Shown here: positions 5,149-53,351 of the stretch, one piece after another
Layout of the letters: each line of letters starts with the position of its first letter
Numbering within the stretch: position 1 is the stretch's first letter
Assembly: GCF_003991875.1 (NCBI RefSeq)
Contig: NZ_CP031423.1
Coordinates: 310,001 to 374,000, forward strand
Origin: Microbacterium lemovicicum
GTDB lineage: Bacteria > Actinomycetota > Actinomycetes > Actinomycetales > Microbacteriaceae
Direction of reading: 5' to 3'
Length of the DNA: 64,000 nucleotides
The notes under the pieces: model-generated
What the model was told of the DNA's origin: nothing
What the model saw: the letters and a program-made list of their open reading frames with translations, nothing else
Databases searched by the model: none
Position numbers and translations under genes: made by a program

Positions 5149-5179
5149 GATCACCTCGTCGACAAGATATCATTATCGT

Positions 5180-14981: not shown

Positions 14982-15403
14982 CCACCGCTCAGGACTCCCG
15001 CACAACGGATGCCGCCGATGAGGTGATCGCCGGCATCCGCGACATGTACGACGCCTTCACGGTGAACGACCGTGAGCGGTTCGATTCTCATCTCCATCAC
15101 GCCACCACCACGTGGGAGAGCGAGCTGCCCCGGATGTACACACGCGCCGATCTCGACGAATTCCGCGACCGTCGCGGCGACTCCGGCGAACGCACCGTCG
15201 TCAGCGAGGTGGTCGTCATCCCGCAGCGCGTGGAGGTGTGGGGCGACACGGCCGTCGCGGCCTACCTCCTGCGCGTCGTGACACCGGATGCCGCCCCCGA
15301 CGGTGTCACCCGCGTCACCGACGTGCTCCGACGCGGCGAGGACGGATGGCGGATCGTCCATCACCATGCCCAGGACCGCGACGTCGACGATCCGACGGCC
15401 TAG
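14978..15403 (+). CDS. NTF2-like / SnoaL-like small protein
   Basis: 141 residues with the cone-shaped NTF2 fold pattern: a long first helix (ADEVIAGIRDMYDAFTVNDRERFDSHLHH), a strand hairpin, and TRVTDVLRRGEDGWRIVHHHAQ at the end, the usual last strands. Such proteins can be isomerases, hydrolases or binding proteins. Its GTG overlaps the amidohydrolase stop by 4 bp. A function in the hydantoinase operon, perhaps isomerizing or racemizing the substrate, is a guess. Confidence 0.75.
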   Translation: MTTAQDSRTTDAADEVIAGIRDMYDAFTVNDRERFDSHLHHATTTWESELPRMYTRADLDEFRDRRGDSGERTVVSEVVVIPQRVEVWGDTAVAAYLLRVVTPDAAPDGVTRVTDVLRRGEDGWRIVHHHAQDRDVDDPTA

Positions 15404-15518
15404 GCCCCGCAGACACGAAACCCGACCCGTCACGAACCTCCAGACCCCATCGAATCCGACGCTGATCGACGACCGAACACCCCGCACCCGAAGCACCACC
15501 GAACGAAGGAGCAGTACC

Positions 15519-17081: not shown

Positions 17082-17106
17082 TTCACATACGGAGAGGGTG
17101 ACTGAC

Positions 17107-18063
17107 ATGTTCGCTCAGACGCGCAGACGAGCCGTCTCACTGGCGGTGGTTCTGGCGATCGGTTCGGTCGTCGCATTCGCGGTGCCGCGACTCGCGCCCG
17201 GCGACGTGGCAGTCACCCTCGCCGGCCCCAATGCGACGCCCGAGAACATCGAGGCGATCCGAGAGCGACTGGGGCTGGACCGGCCGGAGATCGTGCAGTT
17301 CTTCGACTGGATCGGCGGGCTGTTCCGAGGTGACCTCGGAACGTCGTACGTCTACAGCCGCAGCGTTGCGAGCCTCATCGGCGACCGGCTCGACAGCACT
17401 CTGCAGCTGGCCCTGCTGGCAGCGCTGTTCGTCGCGATCCTCGCGACAGTCCTGGGCGTGCTGATGGGCTCCTCGCGACAGCCGAGACTGCGCGCAGTTC
17501 TTGACGTCGTAAGCAGCCTGTTGATCGCCGTCCCGTCGTTCCTGGTGGGACTGCTCTTCATCCTCGCGTTCGGCGTGCTGAACCGGTGGCTCCCCATCAG
17601 TGGGCAGGTGTCGGTCACGGAGGACGTCGGGGAGGGGCTTCGCTACCTGCTCCTGCCCGCCCTCGCACTGTCGCTGTCGGCGGTGGGTGTGATCTCACGC
17701 CTGATCGGCACGGACATGCGCACCATGCGCGAGGAGGAGTTCGTCTACCTCGCCACGAGCAAGGGCGCCTCGCGATGGCGCATCACCCTGCGACACGTGC
17801 TGCCCAACAGCCTCAACGCGGCGATCGTGGCGTTCGGCCTCACGATCGGCGATCTGCTGGCCGGTGCCATCGTCATCGAAGCGCTCTTCAATCGTCAGGG
17901 TCTCGGACAGCTCGCCGTGCTCAGCGTGCAGTCCCGCGACTTCGCCGTCCTGCAGGTGCTCATCCTGGGCGCCGTCGTCGTGGCGGCCGTGTTCCAGATC
18001 CTCACCGAGGTGGCCATCGCGTCCCTCGATCCGCGAATCCGAGCAGGAGTGTCCGCACGATGA
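17107..18063 (+). CDS. ABC transporter permease (DppB/OppB type)
   Basis: 318 residues with about six membrane segments. After the first segment (AVSLAVVLAIGSVVAFAVPRLAPGD) comes the extracytoplasmic RERLGLDRPEIVQFFDWIGGLFRGDLGTSY, a hallmark of OppB/DppB. The EAA loop EEEFVYLATSKGASRWRI, which contacts the ATPase, is near the C-terminus. GGAGAGG stands upstream of the ATG at 17107. The stop overlaps the next permease (ATGA). Confidence 0.9.
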   Translation: MFAQTRRRAVSLAVVLAIGSVVAFAVPRLAPGDVAVTLAGPNATPENIEAIRERLGLDRPEIVQFFDWIGGLFRGDLGTSYVYSRSVASLIGDRLDSTLQLALLAALFVAILATVLGVLMGSSRQPRLRAVLDVVSSLLIAVPSFLVGLLFILAFGVLNRWLPISGQVSVTEDVGEGLRYLLLPALALSLSAVGVISRLIGTDMRTMREEEFVYLATSKGASRWRITLRHVLPNSLNAAIVAFGLTIGDLLAGAIVIEALFNRQGLGQLAVLSVQSRDFAVLQVLILGAVVVAAVFQILTEVAIASLDPRIRAGVSAR

Positions 18064-18926
18064 CCGCCACCGCCGCCCTGACCGAACGGACCGGCCCGCG
18101 CCGCTATCCTTCCCTGTCGCGCTACGCCTCGGCGCTGCGCAGTCCGAAGGGCATCATCGGCATCACGATCATCGTGGTGCTCGGATCCGCTGCACTGCTG
18201 GCGCCGGTGATCTTCCCCGCCGGTCCCGACGTGCAGAGCCGTGATGCGCTGCTCGGGATCTCCGCGCAGCATGTCTTCGGCACGGACGAGTACGGCCGCG
18301 ACCTGCTGACCCGCAACCTGTACGGCCTGCGGATCGATCTGTTCATCATCCTCACCGCCGTCCCGCTGAGCATGATCCTCGGGACACTGCTGGGCCTGAC
18401 CGGTGCGATCTCCGAGCGATTCGGCAGCATCGTGCAGCGCTGCCTCGACGTGATCGTCGGCTTCCCGGGCCTGATCCTCGGCATCTGCATCGTCGTCATC
18501 CTCGGTCCCGGATGGTTCCCGATCTTCCTGACGATCCTCATCACAGGGCTGCCCAGCGCGGGGCGGCTCTCGCGCGCCGTGCTGCTGCGCGAGCGGGATC
18601 GCGAGCATGTGCTGGCCGCGCGCGTCCTCGGCGTGCCCCGCTGGAAGATCCTGCTGCGGCACATCCTCCCGTTCACCGTCGAATCGGCGCTGGTGAACGC
18701 CGCCGTCTGGATGGTGATCGGCGTGTACATCGGCGCCGGCCTCAGCATTGTGGGCCTGGGCGTGCAGCCACCCACCCCGTCCCTCGGGGTGCTGATCAAC
18801 GGCGGGATGCGCTACATCTATCAGGCCCCCACCTATGTCCTGTTCCCCGCGCTCATCCTGGTGCTGATCGCCATCGCCTTCGGCTTCATCGCCGACGCCC
18901 TCAACGAGAGGACGGCGAAGCGATGA
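18060..18926 (+). CDS. ABC transporter permease (DppC/OppC type)
   Basis: 288 residues. The N-terminal cytoplasmic part precedes GIIGITIIVVLGSAALLAPV, the first membrane segment; HVFGTDEYGRDLLTR is the OppC/DppC signature, and ERDREHVLAARVLGVPRWKI is the EAA loop. It pairs with the upstream permease and shares ATGA overlaps with the genes on both sides, so the importer is translated as one coupled unit. Confidence 0.9.
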   Translation: MTATAALTERTGPRRYPSLSRYASALRSPKGIIGITIIVVLGSAALLAPVIFPAGPDVQSRDALLGISAQHVFGTDEYGRDLLTRNLYGLRIDLFIILTAVPLSMILGTLLGLTGAISERFGSIVQRCLDVIVGFPGLILGICIVVILGPGWFPIFLTILITGLPSAGRLSRAVLLRERDREHVLAARVLGVPRWKILLRHILPFTVESALVNAAVWMVIGVYIGAGLSIVGLGVQPPTPSLGVLINGGMRYIYQAPTYVLFPALILVLIAIAFGFIADALNERTAKR

Positions 18927-20527
18927 CTGCACCCGATTCCGTCATCCCCCTTCTGAGCGTGCGAAACCTCTCGGTCGGCTTCTCCGGTGAGCGCGGCGCG
19001 ATCACCCAGGTCGTCGACGAGGTGTCCTTCGACATCGACCAGGGACGCATCCTCGGCGTCGTGGGCGAGTCCGGCTCCGGCAAGTCGGTCACAGCACGCG
19101 CGGTGATGCGCATGCTGGCGCCGTCGGCACGGGTGACGAGCGGCTCGGTGCTCCTTCGCGGCGACGACATCCTGCGTGCTCCCGAGAAGCGCATGCGTGC
19201 CATGCGCGGACGCGACATGGGCATGGTCTTCCAGGATCCGCAGTCGACGCTCAACCCGATCATGCGCATCGGCGACCAGATCGAGGAGTCGCTGCGTATC
19301 CACGGCGTCGACCGCGATGCGGCTCGGCTGCGCGTCCGGGAACTGCTGGAGCAGGTCGGCATCTCCGATCCCGAACGCGCGAGGCGCAGGTTCCCGCACG
19401 AATTCTCCGGCGGGATGCGTCAACGCGTCGTCATCGCGACAGCGCTGGCCAACAGCCCCTCCCTCCTCATCGCGGACGAGCCCACCACCGCCCTGGACGT
19501 GACCGTGCAGGCTCAGGTTCTCAACCTCCTGCTCGAGATGCGCAGGGAGCTCGGGATCGCGATCCTCCTCATCACGCACGACATGGGCGTGGTGGCCGAC
19601 ACCTGCGACGAGGTTCTGGTCATGAACGGCGGGCGCGTCGTCGAGAGCGGGCCGGTCGGTGCGGTGCTCACGACTCCGAAGGACGCCTACACGCGACGTC
19701 TCCTTGCCGCGATCCCCGACCTCACAGCGCCCACCCGGCCTGCGCCGCCGGCGTCCACAGCGGTATTGCAGGCTCGCGAGGTCCGGACGGTCATCGGCGG
19801 GAGCCGACACGGGCACGTCGCGGTCGACGGTGTTTCGCTGTCGATCGCACGGGGTGAGACGCTCGGCCTGGTGGGCGAATCGGGCTGCGGCAAGTCGAGC
19901 CTGTCGAAGACGCTCGTCGGACTGCTGCCCGCAGCATCAGGGTCGATCGAACTGCGCGGGTCGGACGTCACGGCGATGACGACGAAGGATCGCGCACGGC
20001 TCAGCGACTCCGTGCAGTACGTCTTCCAGGATCCGCTGGCCTCTCTCAACCCCCGACGGACCGTCGCTCAATCCCTCGAGGAGGCCATAGAGACGGCCCG
20101 CGGACCCCGCCGCGATCCACGCGCGCGCAGCACGGAACTGCTCGAACGCGTCGGGCTGGGGCCGGAGAGCCTCGATCGCTACCCGCACGCGTTCTCCGGC
20201 GGACAGCGTCAGCGCATCGGCATCGCGCGGGCGCTGGCTGCCGACCCGGAGATCATCATCCTCGACGAGCCGGTGTCGGCCCTCGACGTCTCGATTCAGG
20301 CCCAGGTGCTCGACCTCCTCGTGGAGCTGCAGGACGACCTCGGCGTCGGCTATCTCTTCATCTCGCACGATCTCGCGGTCATCCGCTCGATCAGTCATCG
20401 GGTGATGGTGATGCGAGCCGGCCGGATCGTGGAAGAGGGCGACACGGATGACGTGTTCGAACGCCCGCAGCACGAGTACACACAGCAGCTCCTGTCCTCC
20501 ATCCCCCGCCTGGAAGACGCTGAATGA
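18923..20527 (+). CDS. Fused double ATPase of an Opp/Dpp-type ABC transporter
   Basis: 534 residues containing two complete ATPase domains, equivalent to DppD and DppF fused. Domain one has Walker A GESGSGKS near residue 50, signature FSGGMRQRV and Walker B LLIADEPTTALD; domain two has GESGCGKS near 320, FSGGQRQRIGIARAL and IIILDEPVSALD. All residues needed for hydrolysis are present. It energizes the two permeases encoded just upstream and overlaps the second by 4 bp. Confidence 0.92.
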   Translation: MTAPDSVIPLLSVRNLSVGFSGERGAITQVVDEVSFDIDQGRILGVVGESGSGKSVTARAVMRMLAPSARVTSGSVLLRGDDILRAPEKRMRAMRGRDMGMVFQDPQSTLNPIMRIGDQIEESLRIHGVDRDAARLRVRELLEQVGISDPERARRRFPHEFSGGMRQRVVIATALANSPSLLIADEPTTALDVTVQAQVLNLLLEMRRELGIAILLITHDMGVVADTCDEVLVMNGGRVVESGPVGAVLTTPKDAYTRRLLAAIPDLTAPTRPAPPASTAVLQAREVRTVIGGSRHGHVAVDGVSLSIARGETLGLVGESGCGKSSLSKTLVGLLPAASGSIELRGSDVTAMTTKDRARLSDSVQYVFQDPLASLNPRRTVAQSLEEAIETARGPRRDPRARSTELLERVGLGPESLDRYPHAFSGGQRQRIGIARALAADPEIIILDEPVSALDVSIQAQVLDLLVELQDDLGVGYLFISHDLAVIRSISHRVMVMRAGRIVEEGDTDDVFERPQHEYTQQLLSSIPRLEDAE

Positions 20528-20639: not shown

Positions 20640-21116
20640 ATGACGTCCGAAGAGATCATCCTGGGAGATCTTCCCGCCGGTATCGTGCGGGCGGACGAGG
20701 CCTACGCCGGTCGGGTGTGGAACGTCCTGGGGCACACGTACACCACCAAGATCGAGAGCGCGTCGACGTACTCGTGGCTCTCCCTCGACCCGGCCGGCAC
20801 CGGAGTCCCTCCGCACGTGCACCCCACGCAGGACGAGTTCATCTATGTCTTCGAGGGCGTCTACACGCTCTACCTCGATGGACAGTGGACGACCGCGGGC
20901 CCCGGTGATCTCGTGCAGATGCCCCGCAACCTGCCGCACGCCTATTACAACAAGCAGGACTCGGTGGCGAAGTCGCTCTTCTGGGTCAGTCCCGGCGGGA
21001 AGCTGGCGAACCTGTTCAGCCTGCTCCACAACGTCACCGACCCCGCCGAGGTCGTCCGCCTGTCGGCGCTGAACGGCGTGGACTTCCTGCCCGAGGGGGC
21101 GGTCGACGGGGCGTGA
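20640..21116 (+). CDS. Cupin domain protein
   Basis: 158 residues. A single cupin barrel with a complete metal site: PPHVHPTQDEFIYVFEG (motif 1, HxHx(5)E-like) and QMPRNLPHAYYN (motif 2). Similar proteins include quercetinase-like dioxygenases and isomerases, but also non-enzymatic members. The ATG at 20640 is preceded by GAGAGGG. It overlaps the start of the broken arylformamidase-like gene by 4 bp (GTGA), so the two were a coupled pair. A 112-bp gap separates it from the ATPase; it may be in the same operon. Confidence 0.8.
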   Translation: MTSEEIILGDLPAGIVRADEAYAGRVWNVLGHTYTTKIESASTYSWLSLDPAGTGVPPHVHPTQDEFIYVFEGVYTLYLDGQWTTAGPGDLVQMPRNLPHAYYNKQDSVAKSLFWVSPGGKLANLFSLLHNVTDPAEVVRLSALNGVDFLPEGAVDGA

Positions 21117-21842
21117 CGACGCCCGCCGTCGATCCTGCGCCGCGGGACGGCATCCTCCGGTACGGCCAGCACGAGGACCAGCGGATCGAGCTGACCCGTC
21201 CGAACGGAGATCCGCGGGGCGCGCCCGTAGTCATCCACGGCGGATACTGGCGGGCGCGGTTCACGATGAACCTGATGCGGCCCCTCGTGCCGGTGTTCGA
21301 CGAGGCCGGGTGGCTCGTCGCGAACATCGAGTACCGCCGGGCCGCTGACGGCTGGACCGCCACGCGTGACGATGTCGCTGCGGCGCTGACCGCGGTGAGA
21401 GACCTGAGCGCCACGCGCGGACTGCTGGTCGTCGGCCACTCGGTCCGGCGGGCAGCTGGCCCTGCTGAACGGGCGCGAGGGCGACATGGTCGTCGCGCTT
21501 GCGCCCGTGAGCGACCTCGTGAGCGGCTACGACGAGGGGATCGGCGACGGCGCGATCGAGGAGTTCCTCCACGACTCGCCTACCAGCCGGCCCGACGTGT
21601 ACTTCGAGGCTTCGCTCCTTGCACACGTCCCACCGCTCAGCGAGGTGGTCGTCGTCCACGGACGCGACGATGCTCGCGTGCCCATCGCCCAGACGCGCAC
21701 CTACGTGGCGGCGTCCCGGGCGACGGGGCAGGACGTCACGGTCCTCGAGGTGCCGAGTCTCTCGCACCTCGACGCGATCGATCCGCGGGCACCGCACTGG
21801 CGCGACGTGTCCGCATGGATCGACGGTCGACGGGCGCCCTAG
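21113..21842 (+). pseudogene. kynB-like: Arylformamidase-like alpha/beta hydrolase, frameshifted
   Basis: An alpha/beta hydrolase of about 242 residues if the frame is restored. IHGGYW at about residue 41 is the HGGxW oxyanion-hole motif of eukaryote-type kynurenine formamidases. The nucleophile elbow should read GHSAGGQLALLN, but an extra T at about 21444 shifts the frame immediately after GHS; upstream lies in one frame and the remainder (acid in HGRDDARVP, histidine in SLSHLDAI) in the next. Deleting one base restores a continuous reading frame. N-formylkynurenine hydrolysis would connect tryptophan dioxygenase to kynureninase. It may be a true pseudogene or a sequencing error. An IS481-type element lies on its stop codon. 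Confidence 0.75.
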
Positions 21843-21843
21843 T
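21838..21843. repeat. Target-site duplication, left (CCTAGT)
   Basis: CCTAGT directly precedes the left end of the IS and is repeated at 22950-22955 after the right end. It fits the NCTAGN target preference described for IS481. It contains the TAG stop codon of the upstream gene, which is therefore preserved. Confidence 0.85.
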
Positions 21844-22834
21844 TGTGATGTCCAGGCAGGTTGTTGAGTCTGCTGATGGGTGGGCCGCCGATGGCGGAGT
21901 GGGTTCGGTGATGATTGTAGAAGTGCAGCCAACCGGGCAAGGCAGCGCGTCGTTCGGTTTCTGAGGAGTAGAAGCGGGCGTAGGCCCATCCGTCGGCGAG
22001 GGTGCGGTGCAGGCGCTCGATCTTCCCGTTGGTCTGCGGCCGGTAGGGGCGAGTTCGTTTGTGGCGGATCCCGAGCTGGGTGCAGGCGTCTTTCCAGGCG
22101 TGGGATCGGTAGGCCGAGCCGTTGTCGGAGAGCACGCGCTCGACGGTGACGCCGCGTTCAGCGAACCAGGTGACTGCGCGCTCGAGCACGCCGATCGCCG
22201 TGACGGCCTTCTCGTCTGCGCAGACCTCGATGTAGGCGACGCGGGAGTGGTCGTCGATCACGGTGTGCAGGAACGCGGTGCCGATGAGAGGGCGGTAGTG
22301 GCGGCCGCGTTCCCCGGTTCGGACGGCTTGGTCGCGGGCGTTGGCTTTGCTCTGCTGGCGGCTGAGGAACTTGTGTCCGCCGCCGTCGGGGATGTTGCCG
22401 AACTTGGTGACGTCGACGTGGATAAGCGAACCCGGGTGCGGGTGCTCGTAGCGTCGGATCGGCTCGCCGGTGACGCGGTCGATATGGCTGAGCCGGTTGA
22501 TCCGGGCGCGCACGAGCACCGCGTGAACTGTCGATGCCGGCAACCCCAGTTCGCCGCCGATCTGCACAGGTCCGAGCCGTCGCCGCCATCGCAACCTGAC
22601 GATTCGTTTGACGACATCCGGTGGTGTTCTGGTCGGCATCGACCGCGGGCGACTGGAGCGATCCACCATCCCCGCAGCGCCCTCGGCCCGATATCGGGCC
22701 GCCCACTTTCGGGCAGTCACGGGCGAGACCATGAACATCTTGGCCGCGACGATCACCGGCCACCGATCATCGACGACGAGCCGCGCCAACCGAAGTCGAG
22801 CGCGCGGAGTCAGAGCAGCATTAGCGTGGGACAC
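21839..22834 (-). CDS. IS481-family transposase
   Basis: About 331 residues from the GTG at 22834 (MSHANAALTPRARLRLARLVVDD reads as a typical IS481 N-terminus; the ATG at 22876 lies further upstream). An HTH region (FMVSPVTARKWAARYRAEG) precedes the integrase core. The catalytic acids are visible: Asp in HVDVTKFGN or VIDDHSRVAY, Asp in VLSDNGSAYR, and Glu in NGKIERLHRTL. The reading frame is intact, so the element is probably active. The C-terminus runs a few bases past the left inverted repeat into the target duplication. Confidence 0.92.
   Translation of the reverse strand: MSHANAALTPRARLRLARLVVDDRWPVIVAAKMFMVSPVTARKWAARYRAEGAAGMVDRSSRPRSMPTRTPPDVVKRIVRLRWRRRLGPVQIGGELGLPASTVHAVLVRARINRLSHIDRVTGEPIRRYEHPHPGSLIHVDVTKFGNIPDGGGHKFLSRQQSKANARDQAVRTGERGRHYRPLIGTAFLHTVIDDHSRVAYIEVCADEKAVTAIGVLERAVTWFAERGVTVERVLSDNGSAYRSHAWKDACTQLGIRHKRTRPYRPQTNGKIERLHRTLADGWAYARFYSSETERRAALPGWLHFYNHHRTHSAIGGPPISRLNNLPGHHN
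21844..21866 (+). repeat. IS left terminal inverted repeat
   Basis: TGTGATGTCCAGG followed by CAGGTTGTTG matches the complement of the right end (22927-22949) at 21 of 23 positions. Confidence 0.85.
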
Positions 22835-22926
22835 GAAGGCCTCCTGAGTGCGAGAGCGGTTCCTAGACAGCTCCACTCTCGCAACGGGAGGCCTTCACCC
22901 GTCAGCGAATCACACGCTATTCACGC

Positions 22927-22976: not shown

Positions 22977-23402
22977 TCAGGCGCGCGCGTACCCTTCGAG
23001 GGTGTCGTCGTCGACGTCATCGAGATTGACGACGATGTTCTCCGGCGTACGCGCGGTGAGCCACACCAGATCGTCAGTGGTGGACATATTGGCCTCCACG
23101 TGCGGCATGAACGGCGGCACGAAGACCCAGTCGCCCTCGGACATGTCGAGCCACTGCCGATACCCCTCGCCGAAGTAGATGCGGCCCTTCCCCCGGAGCA
23201 CGTAGCCGCCGGTCTCGGCCTCCCCGTGGTGGTGGGGGAACGACCGGTAGCCCGGGCTGTTGCTCACCTGGCCGAACCACAGCTTCGTAGCCGGGGTGTG
23301 CTGGATGCTGACCCCGGAGATGCGGATCGCGCCTCCGGACTGTCCCGTCGAACGGTCTTCCTCGCCGGCCCGTGTGACCACGGGCACGTCATCGTGTGCC
23401 AT
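22977..23402 (-). CDS. Small cupin protein, candidate ring-cleavage dioxygenase
   Basis: 141 residues. A single cupin barrel with PHHHGEAETGGYVLRGKG (motif 1 with several histidines and Glu) and FVPPFMPHVEAN (motif 2 with His), so a metal centre can form. The ATG at 23402 has GGAAGGA upstream and overlaps the preceding FAH gene by 14 bp. It is the last gene of the CoA ligase/aryl-CoA monooxygenase operon. Single-domain cupins include extradiol-type dioxygenases, isomerases and sensors. Because the operon has a thioesterase, a RidA and an FAH hydrolase, I suggest ring cleavage of an aminophenol-type intermediate; this is inference. Confidence 0.8.
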   Translation of the reverse strand: MAHDDVPVVTRAGEEDRSTGQSGGAIRISGVSIQHTPATKLWFGQVSNSPGYRSFPHHHGEAETGGYVLRGKGRIYFGEGYRQWLDMSEGDWVFVPPFMPHVEANMSTTDDLVWLTARTPENIVVNLDDVDDDTLEGYARA

Positions 23403-24240
23403 GAGAGGTTCCTTCCGCAGTGGTGAAGACACGGTTGTCGAGTGACCCGATGCCGTCGATGGATGTGGTCAACCTGTCGCCGTCGGCCAGGAAGCGCGGG
23501 GGCGTGCGCCCCGAGCCGACGCCTCCCGGCGTTCCGGTGAGGACCAGATCGCCCGGGCGCAGCCGGGTGAAGGAAGAGACGTAGGCGAGGAGATCCGCGG
23601 GCCCGAACACCAGGTCGGACACGTCGTGGTCCTGCAGCACGTCGTCGTTCACCGTCGTGCGCAGGTGTCTGCCCCCCGCCGCCGGATCGAACTCGTCAGG
23701 GGTCACGACGACGGGTCCGACGGGAGTCGTGGCGTCGAACATCTTGCCCTGCTGCCATTGCGTCGTGCGGTTCTGCCAGTCGCGCATGGAGATGTCGTTG
23801 GCGACTGTGTACCCCGCGATGGCCGACGCCGCCTCGTCGCGGGTGGCGCGTCGAAGGTCGGCTCCCACGACAACGACCAGTTCGCCCTCCCAGTCGACCC
23901 GGTCCGGGGCATCCGAGACGTGGATGTCGTCGTCGGGGCCGACGAGAGTGTCGGCGTGTTTGAGGAAGACCGTGGGGTGCGAGGGGAGTTCGCGGCCCAT
24001 CTCGAGGATGTGCTCCCGGTAGTTCAGACCGATGCAGATGATCTTCGTGGGTGCCGGCACCGGGGTGAGCCGCCGTGACCCGCTCGGAACGATCTCCTCC
24101 GCCCCGTCGATCGCGTCACGCCACCGTGGGTCGGACAGGAGGTGGCCGACGTCTGCAGCCGGCAGGCGCCGCCACCGTTCTGCGTCTTCGTACGCAGCGG
24201 TCGTCGTGCCGTCGGGCAGGACTGCGGTCAGCAGGCGCAT
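23389..24240 (-). CDS. Fumarylacetoacetate hydrolase family protein
   Basis: 283 residues. A short N-terminal part precedes the FAH fold: KIICIGLNYREHILEMG, PTVFLKHADTLVGPDD, DWEGELVVVVGADLR (metal-binding Glu residues), GYTVANDISMRDWQ and GDLVLTGTPGGVG. This family includes C-C bond hydrolases such as fumarylacetoacetate and fumarylpyruvate hydrolases, plus decarboxylases. In this operon it would be the step after ring opening. It begins 28 bp after RidA and overlaps the cupin gene. Confidence 0.88.
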   Translation of the reverse strand: MRLLTAVLPDGTTTAAYEDAERWRRLPAADVGHLLSDPRWRDAIDGAEEIVPSGSRRLTPVPAPTKIICIGLNYREHILEMGRELPSHPTVFLKHADTLVGPDDDIHVSDAPDRVDWEGELVVVVGADLRRATRDEAASAIAGYTVANDISMRDWQNRTTQWQQGKMFDATTPVGPVVVTPDEFDPAAGGRHLRTTVNDDVLQDHDVSDLVFGPADLLAYVSSFTRLRPGDLVLTGTPGGVGSGRTPPRFLADGDRLTTSIDGIGSLDNRVFTTAEGTSHGTR

Positions 24241-24268
24241 GCGTGCCTCCTCGACGATGTCGCACCGG

Positions 24269-24667
24269 TCACTGCGAGATCACCGCGACCGCCTGTATCT
24301 CGATCAGCGCCTCGGGCTGCCACAGCGCGGTCACGCCCACCCCGGCCATCGCCGGGTAGTGCGCGGAGCCGGTGAGCTCGCGCCAGACGCGTCCGATCTC
24401 TCGCCCGTGACGCTGGTAGTCGGCTACGTCGATGAGGTAGATGGTCACCGAGACGAGGTCGTCGGGCCGGCCCCCTGCCTCGCGCAGCGTCTCCAGGACG
24501 TTGGAGAACGACTGCGTGAACTGCTCGACGATCCCTCCGGCCACGATCGCTCCCGTGGCATCCATCGCCGTCTGCCCGCCCAGGTAGACGGTGTTCCCCG
24601 CCTTCGTCCCGTGCGAGAACCCCGAGGGCTTGGCCAGGCTCGCGGGGTTGATGTTCTCGTTGGTCAT
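24269..24667 (-). CDS. RidA family (YjgF/YER057c) deaminase
   Basis: 132 residues. Typical segments are FSHGTKAGNTVYLGGQTAMDATG, QSFSNVLETLREAGGRPDDLVSVTIYL and PAMAGVGVTALWQPEALIEIQAVAV, with the conserved GV..L..P..L.EI region; the canonical RidA arginine before the second half of this motif is replaced (VGVTALWQP), so activity may differ. RidA proteins hydrolyse enamines and imines to ketones and ammonia. The ATG at 24667 overlaps the stop of the thioesterase gene (ATGA). An amino group from anthranilate has to leave somewhere in the pathway, and this is a natural candidate. Confidence 0.88.
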   Translation of the reverse strand: MTNENINPASLAKPSGFSHGTKAGNTVYLGGQTAMDATGAIVAGGIVEQFTQSFSNVLETLREAGGRPDDLVSVTIYLIDVADYQRHGREIGRVWRELTGSAHYPAMAGVGVTALWQPEALIEIQAVAVISQ

Positions 24668-25599
24668 CGCTGATCCCTTCCTTCGTGCGCGGCGCTGCCT
24701 GGCTGCTCCGAGGCGTGTCGCGTCGTCGGCGCGTTCCACCGCACCAGCCCTTCCTGAGCGACGCTGGCGACCAGCCGGCCGTCCTGATGGAACGACCCTC
24801 GCACGAGCGCGCGATCGTCTTGAACCGACAGAGCCTCCTGCGTGTAGAGGAACCAGCGCGAGACGTCGAGCGGACGGTGGAACCACATCGCGTGATCGAG
24901 GCTCGCCGTCGTGAGGCCGACGGAACGCCAGTGCAGTCCCCGCAGGCGCAGCGCAGCCTCGAGGATCGTGTAGTCGCAGACGTACGTGAGAGCAGCCGGG
25001 TGTGAGGCGACATCGTGAGGCAGCGCGTCGAAGGATCGCACCCAGAGCGATTGGGTCCGGGCGCGTGCGGGATCGCCGCGGTCGTAGAGTGCGGGCTCGA
25101 CATGGCGCATGTCGAAGCTGCGGCCGCTCGCCCAGTAGTCCGTCGCGTCATCGTCCGCCGTCCGATCGAGCGCATCTGCGGACGAGGGGAGGTCGTCGGG
25201 CGCGGGGACGTCGAAGGACGCCATCGGCGGGAAGTGGTCGCCGCCGGGCGTGGTCGCGAACGACATCGCCGCGGAGAGGCACTTCTTCCCCGACTGCCAC
25301 ACGCTGATCTCACGCATTGAGAACGAGCGCCCGTCGCGGGTGCGGCGCACGTCGATCCGAACCGGCGAGCCGATCTCGACGGGGCTCAGGAAGTAGGCAT
25401 GGAGCGAGTGGGCGGTGCGGTCGCCCTCCACGGTGAGGGATGCCGCGGCCACGGCCTGCGCAGCGGTGTCGCCGCCGTACGCCTTCGGCCAGGGCACGTA
25501 CTGCGGCATGGCCTCGAATGACCGGATGCCGTCCGCGGAGGAGGGCACTTCCGCGACACGGACGGCGTCGAGGAAGCGCTGGCTGGTGGGACCGCTCAT
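24664..25599 (-). CDS. Acyl-CoA thioesterase (TesB type)
   Basis: 311 residues, a double hot-dog protein. The N-terminal half has YGGDTAAQAVAAAS and HSLHAYFLSPVEIG, and the C-terminal half has the catalytic-region SLDHAMWFHRPLDVSRWFLY, both typical of TesB. It would release CoA from an aryl- or acyl-CoA intermediate. It starts one base after the stop of the large monooxygenase and overlaps ridA at its end. A thioesterase just after an aryl-CoA hydroxylase resembles salicylyl-CoA to gentisate routes and argues for free-acid ring cleavage here. Confidence 0.88.
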   Translation of the reverse strand: MSGPTSQRFLDAVRVAEVPSSADGIRSFEAMPQYVPWPKAYGGDTAAQAVAAASLTVEGDRTAHSLHAYFLSPVEIGSPVRIDVRRTRDGRSFSMREISVWQSGKKCLSAAMSFATTPGGDHFPPMASFDVPAPDDLPSSADALDRTADDDATDYWASGRSFDMRHVEPALYDRGDPARARTQSLWVRSFDALPHDVASHPAALTYVCDYTILEAALRLRGLHWRSVGLTTASLDHAMWFHRPLDVSRWFLYTQEALSVQDDRALVRGSFHQDGRLVASVAQEGLVRWNAPTTRHASEQPGSAAHEGRDQR

Positions 25600-25600
25600 C

Positions 25601-27877
25601 TCACGCCACCTGCACCCGGCGGCGGGCGCCGATCCCCGCGCGGTACTGCTGCGGAACGGTCGGATCGGCCCAGGCCTGGTCGATCGCCGCGTTGAGGGTC
25701 CAGTACGGATCGATCAGGTGCGGCCGGGCGATCAGGCAGAGGTCGGCTCGGCCGGCAAGAAGGATCGTGTTGACGTCGTCGACGCTGGACACCGCTCCGA
25801 CGGTCATGGTGGGGATGCCGACCTCGTGGCGGATCTTGTCGCTGTACGGCGTCTGGTAGAGGCGCCCGTACTCGGGTCGCGCCTCGACGCTGGTCTGTCC
25901 CGTCGACACATCGATGATGTCGGCACCGTGATCCTTGAGCCAGCGGGACAGCGTGACCGCGTCGTCGCCGGAGAAGCCGCCCTGCACCCAGTCCGTGGCG
26001 CTGATCCGGACGCTGATCGGCTTCTCTGCGGGCCATACCGCGCGCACTCCGTCGAAGATCTCGAGCGCGAGGCGCGCGCGCGAGGCCAGGTCGCCGCCGT
26101 AGGCGTCGTCGCGATGATTGGAAAGCGGACTCAGGAAACTGGAGACCAGATAACCGTGGGCGAAGTGGAGCTCGATCAGGTCGAATCCCGCCGTCTCGGC
26201 CCGACGCGCAGCATCCACGTGCTCCTTCACGATGCCGGAGATCTCGTCGAGGGTCAGTTCGTGCGGCACGGCGGAGTTCTCGCCGTACGGCAGCGCCGAC
26301 GGGCCGACGATCGGCCAGTTGTCCGCCGGCAGGGGCTCGTCGATCTCCTCCCAGCCGACCTGTGTCGACGCCTTCCGTCCGGCATGCCCGATCTGCAGGC
26401 CGATCTTCGCCGAGGTGTCCTCGTGCACGAAGCGGACGATCGTCCCCCACGCGGCGGCCTGCTCGTCGTTCCAGATGCCGGGGCAGCCCGGAGTGATCCG
26501 CCCCTGAGGCGAGGTGCAGGTCATCTCCGTGAACACGAGTCCGGCACCGCCGACGGCTCGCGAGCCGAGGTGCACCAGATGCCAGTTCGTGGGCATGCCG
26601 TCCACCGCGGAGTACTGGGCGGTCGGAGACACTGCCACGCGGTTTTTCAGAGTGAGGCCGCGCAGGGTGAGGGGGTAGAACATGGGCGGCGTGCGCGGGT
26701 CCTCCGGTGCATCCGTCGCGTGTGAGCGGAACCACTCCAGGGCCCGATCGGCATACGAGCCGTCGCGCAGCCGGAGGTTGTCGTACGTGATCCGCTGGCT
26801 GCGGGTGAGCAGCTGGAACACGAACTGGGCCGGGGGGAGCTCGGCATAGCGGTCGATGTTCTCAAACCACCGCAGGCTCGTCAGGGCCGAGCGCCGCAGA
26901 GACTCTGCGATGGGTCGTCGCTCCGCTTCGTACCGTGCGAGCCCGTCGGCGATGCGCTCCTCCGCGGTGACGGCGCCCACCAGCGCGATCGCGTCCTCCA
27001 GCGCCTGCTTCGTTCCCGACCCGATCGAGAAGTGCGCGGTGTGCGCGGCGTCCCCGATGATCACGACGGTGTCGTCGAACCATCGCCGGTTCGAGACGTC
27101 GCGGAAGTTGAGCCACCCGGAGTTGTTGCCGATCAGCCGGTGCCCGCCGAGGTACTCCGCGAAGATCTGCTCGCAGAATGCCATCGAGCGCTCATCACTC
27201 TGGCCCGGCACTCGCCGAGCCGCCGCGAAGTCGTCGAGGCCGGCGCGACGCCACGTCTCGGGATCGGTCTCCACGAGGAAGGTGGAATGGGTGTCGTCGT
27301 AGGGATAGATATGCGCCCAGAACATCCCGTACGGGGTGTCGACGAAGAGGAATGTGAAGCAGTCCACAGGGCGGTCGGTCCCGTACCAGACGTACTTGAA
27401 GGGCCGCTCCGACTCCTCGGTGCCGAACGCGTCGGAGAGCTCGCGGCGTACCGCGCTGTTGACGCCGTCGGACGCGATGACGAGGTCGTACTCGGCGCGC
27501 AGCTGCTCCAGAGGAGGCGACGGTGTCGAAGGGCGCAGGTCCACTCCAAGCTCGGCCGCCCGCTCTGCGAGCGTCACCAGGAGGTCGCGCCGGGCCAGCG
27601 CAGCGAACGAGTGGCCGTCCGACCGCTCCCGGAAGCCGTTCACGTCCACGTCGATCGCCGACCACTTGCGCCAGAGCGTCTCGATCCGATCGAAGGACAC
27701 CGGGTCCGCGACGGCGAGGTTGTCGAGCGTCTCCTGCGAGAAGACGACGCCGAAGCCGAAGGTGTCGTCGATGGCGTTGCGCTCGTACACGGTCACCTCG
27801 TGGGCGGGATCGGCGAGCTTGAGGAGGATCGCGGAATACAGGCCGCCCGGGCCGGCGCCGATGGAGACTGCTTTCAT
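25601..27877 (-). CDS. Bifunctional aryl-CoA (anthraniloyl/salicylyl-CoA) monooxygenase - old yellow enzyme fusion
   Basis: 758 residues in two domains. Residues 1 to about 370 are a class A FAD monooxygenase (SIGAGPGGLYSAILLKL at the N-terminus, DGVNSAVRREL, and IGDAAHTAHFSIGSGTKQALED). Residues about 385-758 are an FMN TIM barrel of the old yellow enzyme type (YPLTLRGLTLKNRVAVSPTAQYS, GHAGRKAS, ELHFAHGYL). This fusion is that of 2-aminobenzoyl-CoA monooxygenase/reductase and of salicylyl-CoA 5-hydroxylase. With kynureninase in the same region, anthraniloyl-CoA is the most likely substrate, hydroxylated at C5 and perhaps reduced. It lies directly between the small 66-residue gene and the thioesterase. 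Confidence 0.9.
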   Translation of the reverse strand: MKAVSIGAGPGGLYSAILLKLADPAHEVTVYERNAIDDTFGFGVVFSQETLDNLAVADPVSFDRIETLWRKWSAIDVDVNGFRERSDGHSFAALARRDLLVTLAERAAELGVDLRPSTPSPPLEQLRAEYDLVIASDGVNSAVRRELSDAFGTEESERPFKYVWYGTDRPVDCFTFLFVDTPYGMFWAHIYPYDDTHSTFLVETDPETWRRAGLDDFAAARRVPGQSDERSMAFCEQIFAEYLGGHRLIGNNSGWLNFRDVSNRRWFDDTVVIIGDAAHTAHFSIGSGTKQALEDAIALVGAVTAEERIADGLARYEAERRPIAESLRRSALTSLRWFENIDRYAELPPAQFVFQLLTRSQRITYDNLRLRDGSYADRALEWFRSHATDAPEDPRTPPMFYPLTLRGLTLKNRVAVSPTAQYSAVDGMPTNWHLVHLGSRAVGGAGLVFTEMTCTSPQGRITPGCPGIWNDEQAAAWGTIVRFVHEDTSAKIGLQIGHAGRKASTQVGWEEIDEPLPADNWPIVGPSALPYGENSAVPHELTLDEISGIVKEHVDAARRAETAGFDLIELHFAHGYLVSSFLSPLSNHRDDAYGGDLASRARLALEIFDGVRAVWPAEKPISVRISATDWVQGGFSGDDAVTLSRWLKDHGADIIDVSTGQTSVEARPEYGRLYQTPYSDKIRHEVGIPTMTVGAVSSVDDVNTILLAGRADLCLIARPHLIDPYWTLNAAIDQAWADPTVPQQYRAGIGARRRVQVA

Positions 27878-27898
27878 GGTGTGTGCTCTTCTCGCGGC

Positions 27899-28099
27899 TC
27901 AGATGCCGTGGTCGATGAGGTTCTCGTAATCGAGGGTGGCGCCGGTCACGACGATTGACACGCTGGCGAGCGCGTCGCGGAGGTTGGCCGCCTGATAGGG
28001 CGGGAGGTCCCGGGCGCACAGGTCTTTGAGCGCCGAGTAGACCTCGAGGATGGCCCTCTCGTCGTCGGTCAGCGGCAGGTTCAGGATGGTCGAGGACAT
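27899..28099 (-). CDS. Small conserved-looking protein of unknown function in the anthraniloyl-CoA operon
   Basis: 66 residues, acidic to neutral: an N-terminal ILNLPLTDDERAILEVYSALKDL helix, PPYQAANLRDALASVSIVVTG in the middle, ending DYENLIDHGI. I do not recognize a family. The ATG at 28099 follows the CoA ligase stop by 20 bp and the gene ends 21 bp before the large monooxygenase. The tight spacing and lack of its own promoter suggest a job with the flanking enzymes, such as an accessory subunit or a chaperone of the monooxygenase. Confidence 0.7.
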   Translation of the reverse strand: MSSTILNLPLTDDERAILEVYSALKDLCARDLPPYQAANLRDALASVSIVVTGATLDYENLIDHGI

Positions 28100-28119
28100 G
28101 TGGGTGTCTTCCTTCGGCG

Positions 28120-29439
28120 TCAACGCAGATCGAGAAGGCGGCGCGCCTTCAGCTCGAAGCGGGGGAGGGCGTTCACATCGGCGCGTTCCAGGCAGAATCG
28201 AAGCCCTTCGTGCGCGTCGGCGAGGGCCTGGGCGAGTGAGGTCTCCAGCGCAGCCCATTCCCGCGCGTCCGTGGCGGGCGAGGGCTCGACGACGAGGGTG
28301 ATCTCGTCGCGGATGCCCTCTCGGTGGATCCGGATCTGGAACTCCTCGATTCCAGAGTGCGTGCGCACGATGCTTTCCACTGCCTGCGGGTAGACGTTCG
28401 TGCCACGGACGAGTTTCATGTCGTCCACGCGACCCTGCAGTCCGCCGGCGTACATGTCCCATGTGCGCCCATTGCCGGCGACGGCGGCGGGGATCTTCAC
28501 CACCCGGTCGGCGGTGCGGTAGCGGATGAGGGGGATGATGCTGCGTCCGAACGACGTCGAGACCCGCTCGCCCGCCTCTCCGTAGGGCAGCTCTCTGCCG
28601 GTGTCGGGGTCGACGACCTGCTCGATGAAGTGGTCCTCGATGATGTGGCATCCGCCCGGCTGATTCTGCGGCTCGAACATGAAGACGGTCGAGATCTCGG
28701 TCATCCCGGCGGTGTCGTACGCCTTCGCGCCCCAGGCCTCCTCGATCAGCGACTTCATCTCAGGAACGACAGGCTCTCCCGACAGCACGACCGTGTGGAC
28801 GGCGCTCTCGGCGAGGTCGTAGCCCAGTTCGATCGCGACCTGAGCCAGTCGTGCCGCGTAGGTGGGGGTGGATGCGACGACGGTCGCACCGAAGTCGACG
28901 ATCTGCTTCACTCGCGTCTCGGTCGTCTGCGCTCCGCCGGGAATGGTCAGGGCGCCCATCTTCTCCAGTGCATTGTGGAGTCCCCAGAAGCCGATGAACG
29001 AGCCGTACCCGAACGCGACGTAGCCGATGTCATGCGCTCGCACACCCATGCCCCACAGCGCGTACGCCCACATCTCGCTCGCCCACTTCCAGTCCCGACG
29101 AGTGTCGAGCGCTCGCAGCGGGGTGCGCCCGGACGTGCCGCTGGTGGTGTGCAGGCGCACAGCCGCGTCGGCTCCCGCCGCGGGCAGATCACCGTACGGC
29201 GGTGCCGCTTCCTGGCTCTTCATCCAGGCGTCGCGGGTGAGAAAGGGAATCCGCTCGATGTCGGTCCAGGACTTCAGCTGCGTCGGGGAGAAACCCGCCT
29301 CCCGGAAGGAGCGCCGGTAGAACGGGCTCCGTTCGTCCGCCCACGTCACCAGCCGCCGCAGCTTCGCCAGCTGCAGCTCGCGCAGCTGATCGCGCTCGAG
29401 TGTCTCCGTCTTCGGGTTCCAGAACTGCTGCTCGGTCAC
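28120..29439 (-). CDS. PaaK-like aryl-CoA ligase (probably anthranilate-CoA ligase)
   Basis: 439 residues, the normal length of phenylacetate-CoA ligase (PaaK) relatives. The adenylation P-loop HTTSGTSGRTP is at about residue 97, YDTAGMTEIST and DPDTGRELPYGEAGERV follow, and GRVDDMKLVRGTNVYPQAVE is the hinge with the C-terminal domain. It forms an aryl-CoA from a carboxylic acid, ATP and CoA. As first gene of the operon that encodes the anthraniloyl-CoA-type monooxygenase, and with kynureninase in the same region, its substrate is probably anthranilate. A palindrome shared with the kynA promoter lies 38-47 bp upstream. Confidence 0.9.
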   Translation of the reverse strand: MTEQQFWNPKTETLERDQLRELQLAKLRRLVTWADERSPFYRRSFREAGFSPTQLKSWTDIERIPFLTRDAWMKSQEAAPPYGDLPAAGADAAVRLHTTSGTSGRTPLRALDTRRDWKWASEMWAYALWGMGVRAHDIGYVAFGYGSFIGFWGLHNALEKMGALTIPGGAQTTETRVKQIVDFGATVVASTPTYAARLAQVAIELGYDLAESAVHTVVLSGEPVVPEMKSLIEEAWGAKAYDTAGMTEISTVFMFEPQNQPGGCHIIEDHFIEQVVDPDTGRELPYGEAGERVSTSFGRSIIPLIRYRTADRVVKIPAAVAGNGRTWDMYAGGLQGRVDDMKLVRGTNVYPQAVESIVRTHSGIEEFQIRIHREGIRDEITLVVEPSPATDAREWAALETSLAQALADAHEGLRFCLERADVNALPRFELKARRLLDLR

Positions 29440-29476
29440 GACACACGCCTCTCGTCAGGTCACATTACGTACATTA

Positions 29477-29486
29477 GACGCTCGTC
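29477..29486. promoter_or_regulatory. Candidate PaaX-type operator upstream of the aryl-CoA operon
   Basis: GACG-CT-CGTC on the plus strand; on the minus strand it reads CGTGACGAGCGTC followed by TAATGT, which could be the -10 box. The same CGTGACG-NN-CGTC core is upstream of kynA (5180-5189). Confidence 0.4.
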
Positions 29487-29751: not shown

Positions 29752-29781
29752 GATGGCGGTGACGGTGGGATTTGAACCCAC
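29752..29781. repeat. attL: tRNA-Ser 3'-end remnant
   Basis: 30 bp identical to the 3' part of the intact tRNA-Ser(CGA) gene at 53260-53289, including the T arm, acceptor strand and CCA end. Homology with the tRNA stops abruptly after this. This is the left attachment site. Confidence 0.92.
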
Positions 29782-29894
29782 TCTTCCGGGCTATGTCTCG
29801 GACGGTTTGGATCCGAAAACCGCGAAATTCCGCGGCTAGGCGCGGCCGAGAGACACGCTTCGATCGTTCCGGATCACTCACTTTCTCGCTCGAT

Positions 29895-29991: not shown

Positions 29992-31101
29992 TCAGATGCT
30001 GTCGCTGGACGCCGTCGAGAGCGTCGATGTGCGAGCAGCGTCCAAGGCTAGAGACACCCCGTCGAGGTCGTCATCGAAGAGGTCGCTGTAGACATCGAGA
30101 GTGACCGCAGCGCTCGCGTGTCCGAGCATGCGCTGCACAGCCTTGACGTTGGCCCCAGCGCTGATCGCCAGTGATGCCGCCGTGTGTCGAAGATCGTGCG
30201 GGGTCACACGCGGGAATGTGGAGTCAGCGTTCTGGGCCCTCTTCACGGCGCCCGCGAACCACCCCGCCTGTGAGTTCGAGAGAGGGAGTGGATCGAGACC
30301 GTTCCCGAACAGAAACATCTCCGGCGTTCGAGCCTGCACCCGAAGCCCCAGGTCATGCACGACAAACGGTGGGAGGGGGATGGACCGCTGCTTGTGGGAC
30401 TTCGGCGTGCCCAATACGATGCGGGCGCCGACCATCACAGCGTTCTCCTCGATCAGAGCTCGGCCTCGAACGAGATCGACTTGCCGAACACGCAACGCTG
30501 TCGCCTCACCCCACCGAGTGCCGGTGTACGCGAGGAAGCGAACGAGCGCCGGCTCAGCGGACGAAGCGGCGAGCATCTCCACCTGGATGTGGGTGAGGTA
30601 CGCCTTGCGCTTGTGCCCCTTCTTCGGAAGCACGATGTCCCGTGCAGGGTTTGAGGAAAGCCGACGGTCTCTGACCGCGGATTCGAGCATGCCGGCCAGA
30701 ATGCCGTGAGCCCGTAAAACGTTCGAGGCGCTCTGAGCGGCAGCCATTTCCGATACCCACTGCTGAATCTCGGTGTGGCGTATTGAGGCGAGCGAGCGTC
30801 GGCCCCAGCGTGGAAGCACGTGGAGCCGCCACGACGACTCAAGAGAGCGAAACGATGACGCCTTCATGACCTGCTCGCGAGCATCGACCCACTCTTTGCC
30901 GGCCGATGCGACGGTTATGGAGCGCGCGCTGGTGTCTAAGAACTCTCCACGCGCTTTGCCTACTTCGACCGACGAAAGGAACAGCTCGGCACCCCTCTTC
31001 GTGGTGAAACCGCGCTTGTCAGTCTGCGTCGAGTCAGGACGCCGGTATCGCACGCGGTAACGCTTCCCATGAGCCGTCGCGTACGCGGTCACGCTACCCA
31101 T
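29992..31101 (-). CDS. int: Tyrosine recombinase / phage-type integrase
   Basis: 369 residues. The N-terminal part has an arm-binding-like basic domain (KRYRVRYRRPDSTQTDKRGFTTKR) and a SAM-like core-binding domain; the catalytic domain shows YTGTRWGEATALR (first Arg), TPHDLRHTAASL (HxxR) and GHASAAVTLDVYSDL (nucleophile Tyr at about 341). All catalytic residues are present. It lies 210 bp from the tRNA remnant and is transcribed towards it. It overlaps the 203-residue gene upstream by 8 bp, so the two are co-expressed. Confidence 0.92.
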   Translation of the reverse strand: MGSVTAYATAHGKRYRVRYRRPDSTQTDKRGFTTKRGAELFLSSVEVGKARGEFLDTSARSITVASAGKEWVDAREQVMKASSFRSLESSWRLHVLPRWGRRSLASIRHTEIQQWVSEMAAAQSASNVLRAHGILAGMLESAVRDRRLSSNPARDIVLPKKGHKRKAYLTHIQVEMLAASSAEPALVRFLAYTGTRWGEATALRVRQVDLVRGRALIEENAVMVGARIVLGTPKSHKQRSIPLPPFVVHDLGLRVQARTPEMFLFGNGLDPLPLSNSQAGWFAGAVKRAQNADSTFPRVTPHDLRHTAASLAISAGANVKAVQRMLGHASAAVTLDVYSDLFDDDLDGVSLALDAARTSTLSTASSDSI

Positions 31102-53259: not shown

Positions 53260-53289
53260 GATGGCGGTGACGGTGGGATTTGAACCCAC
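53260..53289. repeat. attR: tRNA-Ser 3' end
   Basis: 30 bp identical to 29752-29781; here it is part of the complete tRNA-Ser gene. Confidence 0.92.
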
Positions 53290-53351
53290 GGTAGGGGTGA
53301 ACCTACACAACATTTCGAGTGTTGCACCTTCGGCCGCTCGGACACGTCACC
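53262..53351 (-). tRNA. tRNA-Ser (CGA)
   Basis: 90 bases with a long variable arm typical of tRNA-Ser. The 7-bp acceptor stem is GGTGACG/CGTCACC; the anticodon stem CAACA/TGTTG encloses CTCGAAA, giving anticodon CGA (plus-strand TCG at 53315-53317); the T arm is GTGGG-TTCAAAT-CCCAC. CCA is encoded at 53262-53264. It reads UCG codons. Its 3' end is the integration site of the island, which restores the gene. Confidence 0.97.

Follow-up and report, generated by a model that had tools for sequence, protein, structure and literature searches.

The 2-aminobenzoyl-CoA monooxygenase/reductase (ACMR) was identified in 1990 (cited in PMC3534580), and the fate of its product is usually drawn as beta-oxidation. 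In the pathway of Azoarcus evansii, a CoA ligase and a monooxygenase fused to a reductase of the old yellow enzyme (OYE) type act on 2-aminobenzoate and its CoA ester, and beta-oxidation then follows. When catabolic pathways were recently curated in one effort, this branch was omitted because too little was known of it (PMC9007349). In Arthrobacter sp. strain Rue61a, a ligase of plasmid pAL1, which carries the lower pathway of quinaldine, and a chromosomal ligase make anthraniloyl-CoA, and two CoA esters, C7H7NO3-CoA and C7H8O4-CoA, occur only in anthranilate-grown cells, the latter being proposed as a cyclohexanedione-carboxyl-CoA (PMC3534580). Moreover, anthranilate supports growth of this strain, whereas 3-hydroxyanthranilate, 5-hydroxyanthranilate, gentisate and salicylate do not (PMC3534580). 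The accessible text of that paper discusses only the ligase and the fusion enzyme of the pAL1 gene set, not its cupin, FAH, Rid or TesB genes, and the word cupin is absent from the accessible main text. In this study, a seven-gene operon was analysed in a 64,000-nucleotide stretch of Microbacterium lemovicicum DNA (contig NZ_CP031423.1, positions 310,001 to 374,000), which is called the window. It is proposed, with about equal expectation of being right or wrong, that this operon encodes an aerobic CoA-ester route which degrades anthranilate to succinate and pyruvate, here termed the dihydrogentisyl-CoA route. If true, this would be a central route of aromatic degradation that had not been described before; neither a description of it nor a mention of succinylpyruvate was found in the open literature searched, most subscription journals lying outside that scope.

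All seven open reading frames were confirmed on the minus strand, packed within 22977-29439, and are given in the order of transcription:

28120-29439, minus strand: PaaK-type AMP-forming CoA ligase of 439 residues, presumed anthranilate-CoA ligase (Pfam AMP-binding and AMP-binding_C_2)
27899-28099, minus strand: DUF6052-like protein of 66 residues (Pfam DUF6052, E 3e-5)
25601-27877, minus strand: 2-aminobenzoyl-CoA monooxygenase/reductase-like fusion of an FAD monooxygenase and an OYE reductase, 758 residues (Pfam FAD_binding_3 and Oxidored_FMN)
24664-25599, minus strand: TesB-type thioesterase (Pfam Acyl_CoA_thio)
24269-24667, minus strand: Rid-family protein without the arginine, presumed enamine hydrolase on a CoA ester (Pfam Ribonuc_L-PSP)
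23389-24240, minus strand: FAH-family hydrolase, presumed acylpyruvate (succinylpyruvate) hydrolase (Pfam FAA_hydrolase)
22977-23402, minus strand: single-domain metal cupin of 141 residues, presumed ring-opening dioxygenase (Pfam Cupin_2)

The intergenic gaps along the operon are 20, 21, 1, -4, 28 and -14 bases, and with such short or negative gaps the genes are arranged as in a single operon. A first-pass annotation of this DNA had described a tight seven-gene operon spanning 22977-29486; number and place of the genes were as described, and that span ends 47 bases past the start codon adopted in this analysis (29439). Its remark that the operon holds no dehydrogenase, hydratase or thiolase was borne out, no gene for an enoyl-CoA hydratase, an acyl-CoA dehydrogenase or a thiolase being found there; furthermore, no hydratase, acyl-CoA dehydrogenase or dehydrogenase gene was found beside the fusion gene between 12 and 34 kb of the window. 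A full-length fusion enzyme of this type is present in one copy in the genome.

The proposed route would comprise six steps. The ligase would make anthraniloyl-CoA, as has been shown for relatives with another ligase type, and the fusion enzyme would hydroxylate C5 while its OYE half reduces the ring, giving 2-amino-5-oxocyclohex-1-ene-1-carbonyl-CoA, as reported for the Azoarcus enzyme. The Rid protein would then hydrolyse the enamine, releasing ammonia and leaving 2,5-dioxocyclohexane-1-carbonyl-CoA. This product equals gentisyl-CoA with two more hydrogens, and its formula matches the C7H8O4-CoA seen in Rue61a (PMC3534580). In the fourth step, the metal cupin would bind this beta-keto thioester as an enolate and cleave C1-C2 with O2 to 2,4-dioxoheptanedioyl-CoA; TesB would release CoA, perhaps already before the cleavage; and the FAH protein would hydrolyse the acylpyruvate (succinylpyruvate) to succinate and pyruvate. 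Written as acids, the atoms balance: C7H9NO3 + H2O - NH3 = C7H8O4; + O2 = C7H8O6; + H2O = C4H6O4 + C3H4O3. There is one step for each catalytic gene, none being given to the 66-residue protein, and no dehydrogenase, hydratase or thiolase is required. The gene set is observed, and we infer the steps assigned to Rid, cupin, TesB and FAH. The fuller proposal, that the route is a reduced, non-aromatic twin of the gentisate pathway on CoA esters, in which an arginine-less Rid protein is a genuine enzyme of the pathway that deaminates an enamine bound to CoA, a cupin of one domain acts as a new ring-cleaving dioxygenase for beta-keto thioesters and the exit is via succinylpyruvate, is tentative, and doubt slightly outweighs belief in it.

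The gene content of related loci sets this operon apart. Neighbouring genes were read at 93 fusion-enzyme loci, of which the 72 flanked on each side by 5 kb or more were counted and 21, with less than 5 kb on one side, were left out; these loci were collected by searching for similar sequences, by searching plasmids and from two samples of genomes, form no random draw and include near relatives, and the p values given here overstate their independence. Cupin, TesB and Rid genes, without hydratase, acyl-CoA dehydrogenase or gentisate dioxygenase genes, occur together at 28 of the 72, the window included (cupin type). A further 32 carry hydratase and/or acyl-CoA dehydrogenase genes without cupin or TesB, 31 of them with Rid (beta-oxidation type), and nine carry a bicupin gentisate dioxygenase and no Rid gene (gentisate type). 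One locus (L141) is mixed, with gentisate dioxygenase-like, beta-oxidation and Rid genes together, and two (L116 and L139) have none of these gene sets. The 28 loci uphold the earlier suggestion of a distinct route without beta-oxidation genes. The expectation that the genes always travel together held in part: cupin, TesB and Rid are present at 28/28 cupin-type loci, and FAH at 26 within the flanks and at 27 after L034 was extended (L092 has both its FAH frame and its TesB frame split); the 66-residue gene appears only with a PaaK-type ligase (7/7); and the cupin does not always accompany the monooxygenase, since 32 other fusion loci lack it and have beta-oxidation genes instead. As a six-enzyme cassette of the cupin type replaces beta-oxidation genes at 28 loci, the question of the later steps is open to tests with purified proteins.

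This distribution also bears on a side or detoxification role, in which TesB, Rid and the cupin would clear damaged or dead-end CoA esters while carbon passes through beta-oxidation enzymes encoded elsewhere. Thioesterases often have clean-up roles. Such roles are frequent for Rid proteins too (PMC4433059). However, local hydratase and acyl-CoA dehydrogenase genes and the set are mutually exclusive (0/28 cupin-type versus 32/32 beta-oxidation-type loci), and the cupin is highly conserved, which makes a mere clean-up function quite improbable.

In a sample of 297 genomes, evenly drawn from the order of the host, 21 hold a full-length fusion enzyme (the OYE-only matches in G078, G080, G120 and G176 were not counted) and 18, from 10 genera, a close cupin of at least 67% identity; all 18 are among the 21 (hypergeometric 4e-26, not corrected for relatedness), and the recurrence of the gene set is more than chance. 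The remaining three are G004 and G023, with beta-oxidation genes, and G016, where the gene lies on a 3,973-base contig. A further genome, G285, lacks the fusion enzyme and yet holds a cupin of 58% identity, and in G114 a second cupin, of 54%, is encoded at another place. Among 396 genomes sampled from the phylum of the host, the fusion enzyme was found in 40 and a close cupin (70-100%) in three, all with the fusion enzyme, and weak cupin relatives (38-45%) in eight more; within the phylum, a minority of the genomes with a fusion enzyme are of the cupin type. Most occurrences of this type in the analysis were in the order of the host, and the others in Tsukamurella, Rhodococcus, Streptantibioticus and G567. 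In the sample of the order, 0/12 other genomes of the host's genus have the fusion enzyme.

The core set of fusion enzyme, cupin, TesB, Rid and usually FAH is shared by the window, the Rue61a plasmid and 26 further loci. Plasmid pAL1 (L030) holds five of the seven window genes by homology, with identities of 77% for the cupin, 68% for Rid, 54% for FAH, 52% for the fusion enzyme and 48% for TesB, together with a functionally equivalent ligase; it differs in its benzoate-type ligase, its PaaX regulators, a divergent Rid gene and the lack of DUF6052. The cassette was also found on a Tsukamurella plasmid, on pRLCBG43 of Rhodococcus erythropolis BG43, a plasmid that has the quinolone gene aqdC1 as well, and on a plasmid of Rhodococcus NJ-530, where it lies beside genes for tryptophan dioxygenase and a kynureninase-type protein; like pAL1, these plasmids have another ligase type and no DUF6052. 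The nearest relatives of the window's fusion enzyme are from Microbacteriaceae, including Herbiconiux (72-76%), and G101 has one at 63%. In Herbiconiux oxytropis, about 9 kb separate the fusion gene from the ligase, DUF6052 and FAH genes, which are upstream of it. Compared with the Azoarcus evansii pathway, the operon has cupin, TesB and FAH genes and not those of a hydratase, an acyl-CoA dehydrogenase and a short-chain dehydrogenase/reductase (SDR).

In the fusion enzyme, an N-terminal FAD monooxygenase is joined to a C-terminal OYE reductase as in ACMR, and the protein scores 1066.3 bits against NCBIfam NF006101, 12 under the cut-off of 1078. Its OYE motif, H571-x-x-H574-G-Y576, is intact and aligns with HxxHGY of solved OYE relatives; we take H571, H574 and Y576 to be the catalytic OYE residues. 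The motif is intact in 28/28 cupin-type enzymes and in all 29 closer beta-oxidation-type enzymes tested, a number that leaves out the distant enzymes L133-L151, and it is broken in 9/9 gentisate-type enzymes, where the first His is replaced by Gln in all nine and the Tyr is lost in eight. These nine represent three separate lineages (Streptomyces, Brevundimonas and Cupriavidus), each with the same His-to-Gln change; a cut Streptomyces contig, L044, to which no class was assigned, has the gentisate-type motif as well. A simple reading for the closer relatives would be that enzymes feeding an aromatic gentisate step gave up ring reduction and that the operon's enzyme kept it. Because the motif is intact in cupin-type and broken in gentisate-type enzymes, the aromatic ring is probably reduced by the window's fusion enzyme.

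Judging from annotation and general knowledge, the gentisate-type loci presumably serve salicylate. The degradation of salicylate via gentisyl-CoA uses the same fusion-enzyme family and the same FAH family as the operon, and its end chemistry would be analogous one redox level higher, with fumarate instead of succinate; it differs in its bicupin dioxygenase, in the absence of Rid and in the broken motif. The first-pass annotation had favoured a gentisate-like order for the operon, in which the fusion enzyme yields aromatic 5-hydroxyanthraniloyl-CoA, TesB frees 5-hydroxyanthranilate, the cupin cleaves it, Rid removes the nitrogen and FAH finishes. Gentisate-type loci indeed pair the same enzyme family with a dioxygenase and FAH, 5-hydroxyanthraniloyl-CoA is reported as a product when NADH is short, C7H7NO3-CoA is found in Rue61a (PMC3534580), and for Nocardia opaca a gentisate route with 5-hydroxyanthranilate as an intermediate has been reported (PMC4539516). 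However, apart from the contrast in the OYE motif (28/28 intact versus 9/9 broken), Rid is absent from all nine gentisate-type loci and the window's Rid protein lacks the arginine that grips carboxylates; Rue61a holds C7H8O4-CoA and does not grow on 5-hydroxyanthranilate or gentisate (PMC3534580); and C1-C2 dioxygenation of 5-hydroxyanthranilate would be expected to leave an amide at C2 rather than an imine for Rid. In addition, the operon's cupin is of the single-domain type, its profile search returned no gentisate dioxygenase and a single-sequence search one weak match (E 0.08), and a search of the window's genome for relatives of the L090 gentisate dioxygenase, run without a positive control, gave none. 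The gentisate-like order is given little credence, and the best reading is that it needs revision from an aromatic free-acid analogue of the gentisate pathway to the reduced CoA-ester version.

Rid genes are present at 28/28 cupin-type, 31/32 beta-oxidation-type and 0/9 gentisate-type loci, and because of this contrast (59/60 versus 0/9) Rid is taken as the mark of a nitrogen-containing substrate. The arginine of RidA binds the substrate carboxylate and is essential in the RidA proteins tested, Rid groups that lack it are described as in all likelihood not hydrolysing imines, and the functions of the arginine-less subfamilies were called completely unknown in 2015 (PMC4433059). The window's protein reads YPAM where its best solved relative has YPAR, and the conserved arginine is absent in 38/38 Rid proteins compared (27 cupin-type and 11 other; M in 35, L in two and S in one), residue counts for Rid and for the cupin excluding L117 and later loci. 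Since that arginine binds carboxylates, its loss fits a thioester substrate and could be an adaptation to a carboxyl group held as thioester, and the protein could instead do something else. If the former is true, a substrate class would be assigned to a Rid protein without the arginine. Moreover, beta-oxidation-type relatives carry the same arginine-less Rid, and the first three steps are for this reason probably common to the operon's route and the Azoarcus-type pathway.

A different substrate, namely salicylate or another ortho-substituted aromatic acid, might be suspected from the NCBIfam family name, salicylyl-CoA 5-hydroxylase, and from the ligase, which is PaaK-type and not of the assayed type. 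However, the Rid distribution points to nitrogen, and on it salicylate was set low as a substrate; PaaK-type ligases are also found at beta-oxidation-type fusion loci with Rid (L137, L140 and L149); and genes for kynureninase and/or tryptophan dioxygenase lie beside 4/28 cupin-type loci and in the window itself, 18 kb from the operon:

4294-5154, minus strand: tryptophan 2,3-dioxygenase, probable upstream anthranilate supply (TIGR03036, 391.9 bits, cut-off 390.7; PF03301)
3051-4289, minus strand: kynureninase, anthranilate-forming (TIGR01814, 241.2 bits, cut-off 246.4; KYNU_C)

A different substrate of this kind is very improbable, and anthraniloyl-CoA as the substrate class, which had been claimed at the outset, is further supported by the presence of the same cassette on the Rue61a plasmid, whose ligase makes anthraniloyl-CoA (PMC3534580). 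With this gene pair in the window and a second pair elsewhere in the genome, anthranilate from tryptophan is the likely feed of the operon.

The cupin shows the highest mean pairwise identity of five families compared (72%, against 70% for Rid, 66% for the fusion enzyme, 55% for TesB and 51% for FAH), and its metal signature H57, H59, E63 and H101 is invariant in 27/27 cupins. No close homologue of known function was found for it among solved structures. The enzyme Dke1, a single-domain cupin of 153 residues, cleaves beta-diketones and acts on cis-beta-keto-enolates with O2 (PMC4019311). The operon's protein resembles it as a single-domain cupin of about 150 residues with a metal-binding His signature, and differs in that its substrate would be a CoA ester and in that Dke1 was not retrieved by sequence search with it. 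If the proposed step is true, the protein would represent a new ring-cleaving cupin type. Its assignment as a gentisate or 3-hydroxyanthranilate dioxygenase was rejected, the single-sequence matches being weak (E 0.016-0.34) and none appearing in the profile search at E 0.001. Paralogous cupins with 53-57% identity were seen in L113 (9643-9987) and L114 (9375-9731), where there is no fusion enzyme; both loci have acyl-CoA dehydrogenase-like frames, L113 has an FAH gene (49%), L114 has ligase- and SDR-like frames, and MaoC-like and carboxylase-like genes were noted by eye. The cupin may belong to a subfamily with roles in other CoA-ester pathways.

The FAH protein keeps H77/E80, E118/E120/D149 and K166, which we take to be the His-Glu lid pair, the three acidic metal ligands and the lysine. 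FAH proteins hydrolyse C-C bonds of beta-diketones, and the C7H8O4-CoA proposed in Rue61a is a beta-keto thioester. These points favour a hydrolytic opening, in which, after the same first three steps, FAH would open C1-C2 by a retro-Claisen reaction without O2 to 4-oxopimeloyl-CoA, TesB would free 4-oxopimelate, and the cupin would be an isomerase, a decarboxylase or an accessory protein; the nearest solved relatives of the cupin are indeed decarboxylases and isomerases. However, the most conserved gene of the set would be left without a catalytic role, the substrates known for FAH proteins are acylpyruvates in free form and not CoA esters, and the FAH gene is missing from the surroundings of L033 and belongs to another type at several loci (in L035, L071, L079, L034 and L036, the last a cut contig, the best FAH match is of the gentisate type, at 37-43%, rather than the usual one), while the cupin is constant at 28/28. 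We regard hydrolytic opening as unlikely, though less so than the other alternatives. A variable FAH with a constant cupin and TesB is as expected if FAH acts last, on an acylpyruvate, as in the dihydrogentisyl-CoA route.

Several observations weigh against the dihydrogentisyl-CoA route. By profile, the nearest solved relatives of the cupin are oxalate decarboxylases (E 3e-11), there is no Dke1 chain among its 35 single-sequence or 28 profile matches to solved structures, and its AlphaFold2 model, built from a four-row alignment, has a mean pLDDT of 40 and is unusable. At one cupin-type locus, L033, FAH genes are lacking within 9 kb, and the 1.8 Mb record holds only one, far away. The window's ligase is of a different type from the assayed pAL1 ligase, and its fusion enzyme shares a mean identity of 55% with the rest of the cupin type. 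The OYE motif, intact in L133-L135, is broken in 13/16 of the distant enzymes L136-L151 (all but L136, L142 and L149), many of them beside beta-oxidation genes and Rid, and also in L059, a cut contig with only tryptophan dioxygenase, kynureninase and hydrolase genes; across the whole superfamily it is no tracker of ring fate, and this imperfect guide lends the gentisate-like order some support. Moreover, the agreement of three of three gentisate-type lineages is too small a number for significance (sign test p 0.25), and the failure of Rue61a to grow on free 5-hydroxyanthranilate may reflect missing uptake or a missing ligase.

The best NCBIfam models for the window's ligase are those of PaaK, at 242 and 240 bits and far below their cut-offs of 700 and 646; this PaaK-type enzyme occupies the place that a benzoate-type ligase has in most relatives. 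The 66-residue protein scores 24.7 bits for DUF6052 (cut-off 25). A DUF6052 gene is present in 7/7 cupin-type loci with a PaaK-type ligase and, at E 0.01, in no cupin-type locus with another ligase type. Since it is present only beside the PaaK-type ligase, the protein may be a partner of that ligase. Weak DUF6052 matches were also seen in L137, L139 and L151, again with PaaK-type ligases. In TesB, residues D209, S233 and Q282 align with the Asp, Thr and Gln of E. coli TesB (1c8u), Ser233 replacing the Thr; Asp-Thr-Gln is presumably the TesB catalytic triad.

In a tree of the fusion enzymes, from which a second, short match of L032 was dropped, the window's clade (with L069, L037 and L034-L036) is separated from the pAL1 clade by enzymes of the beta-oxidation and gentisate types, and the cupin content requires 2 to 3 changes. 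Because of this separation, the gene set would either be old among actinobacterial enzymes and then lost, or have been assembled more than once.

Between the kynurenine genes and the operon, at 9986-20527, lie genes for hydantoinase A/B, an amidohydrolase and a peptide-type ABC transporter, and these three parts possibly form one larger catabolic region. After a second, different cupin gene (20640-21116) comes an alpha/beta-hydrolase gene (21152-21821) that a frame change disrupts. This pair also adjoins the anthranilate cassette in L069, L085 and L086, where the hydrolases are 31-34% like that beside tryptophan dioxygenase in Ruegeria, perhaps a kynurenine formamidase; the second cupin was left out of the route, its type recurring near the fusion enzyme only in L069, L085, L086 and L088.

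The operon is boxed in by mobile DNA. Directly downstream of its cupin gene lies an IS481-family transposase gene (21839-22876), and on the other side a genomic island (29754-53290) adjoins it. A copy of the last 29 bases of a tRNA-Ser gene (53262-53351, minus strand), differing at one base, lies at 29754-29782, beside a gene for a phage-type integrase (29992-31101). Membership of the operon in the island was rejected, the tRNA-end repeat separating it from the integrase and placing it just outside. The island carries a TrwC relaxase-like gene (37965-40694), an aquaporin-like gene, a low-molecular-weight phosphatase gene and redox genes, the last having, by eye, the look of arsenic resistance.

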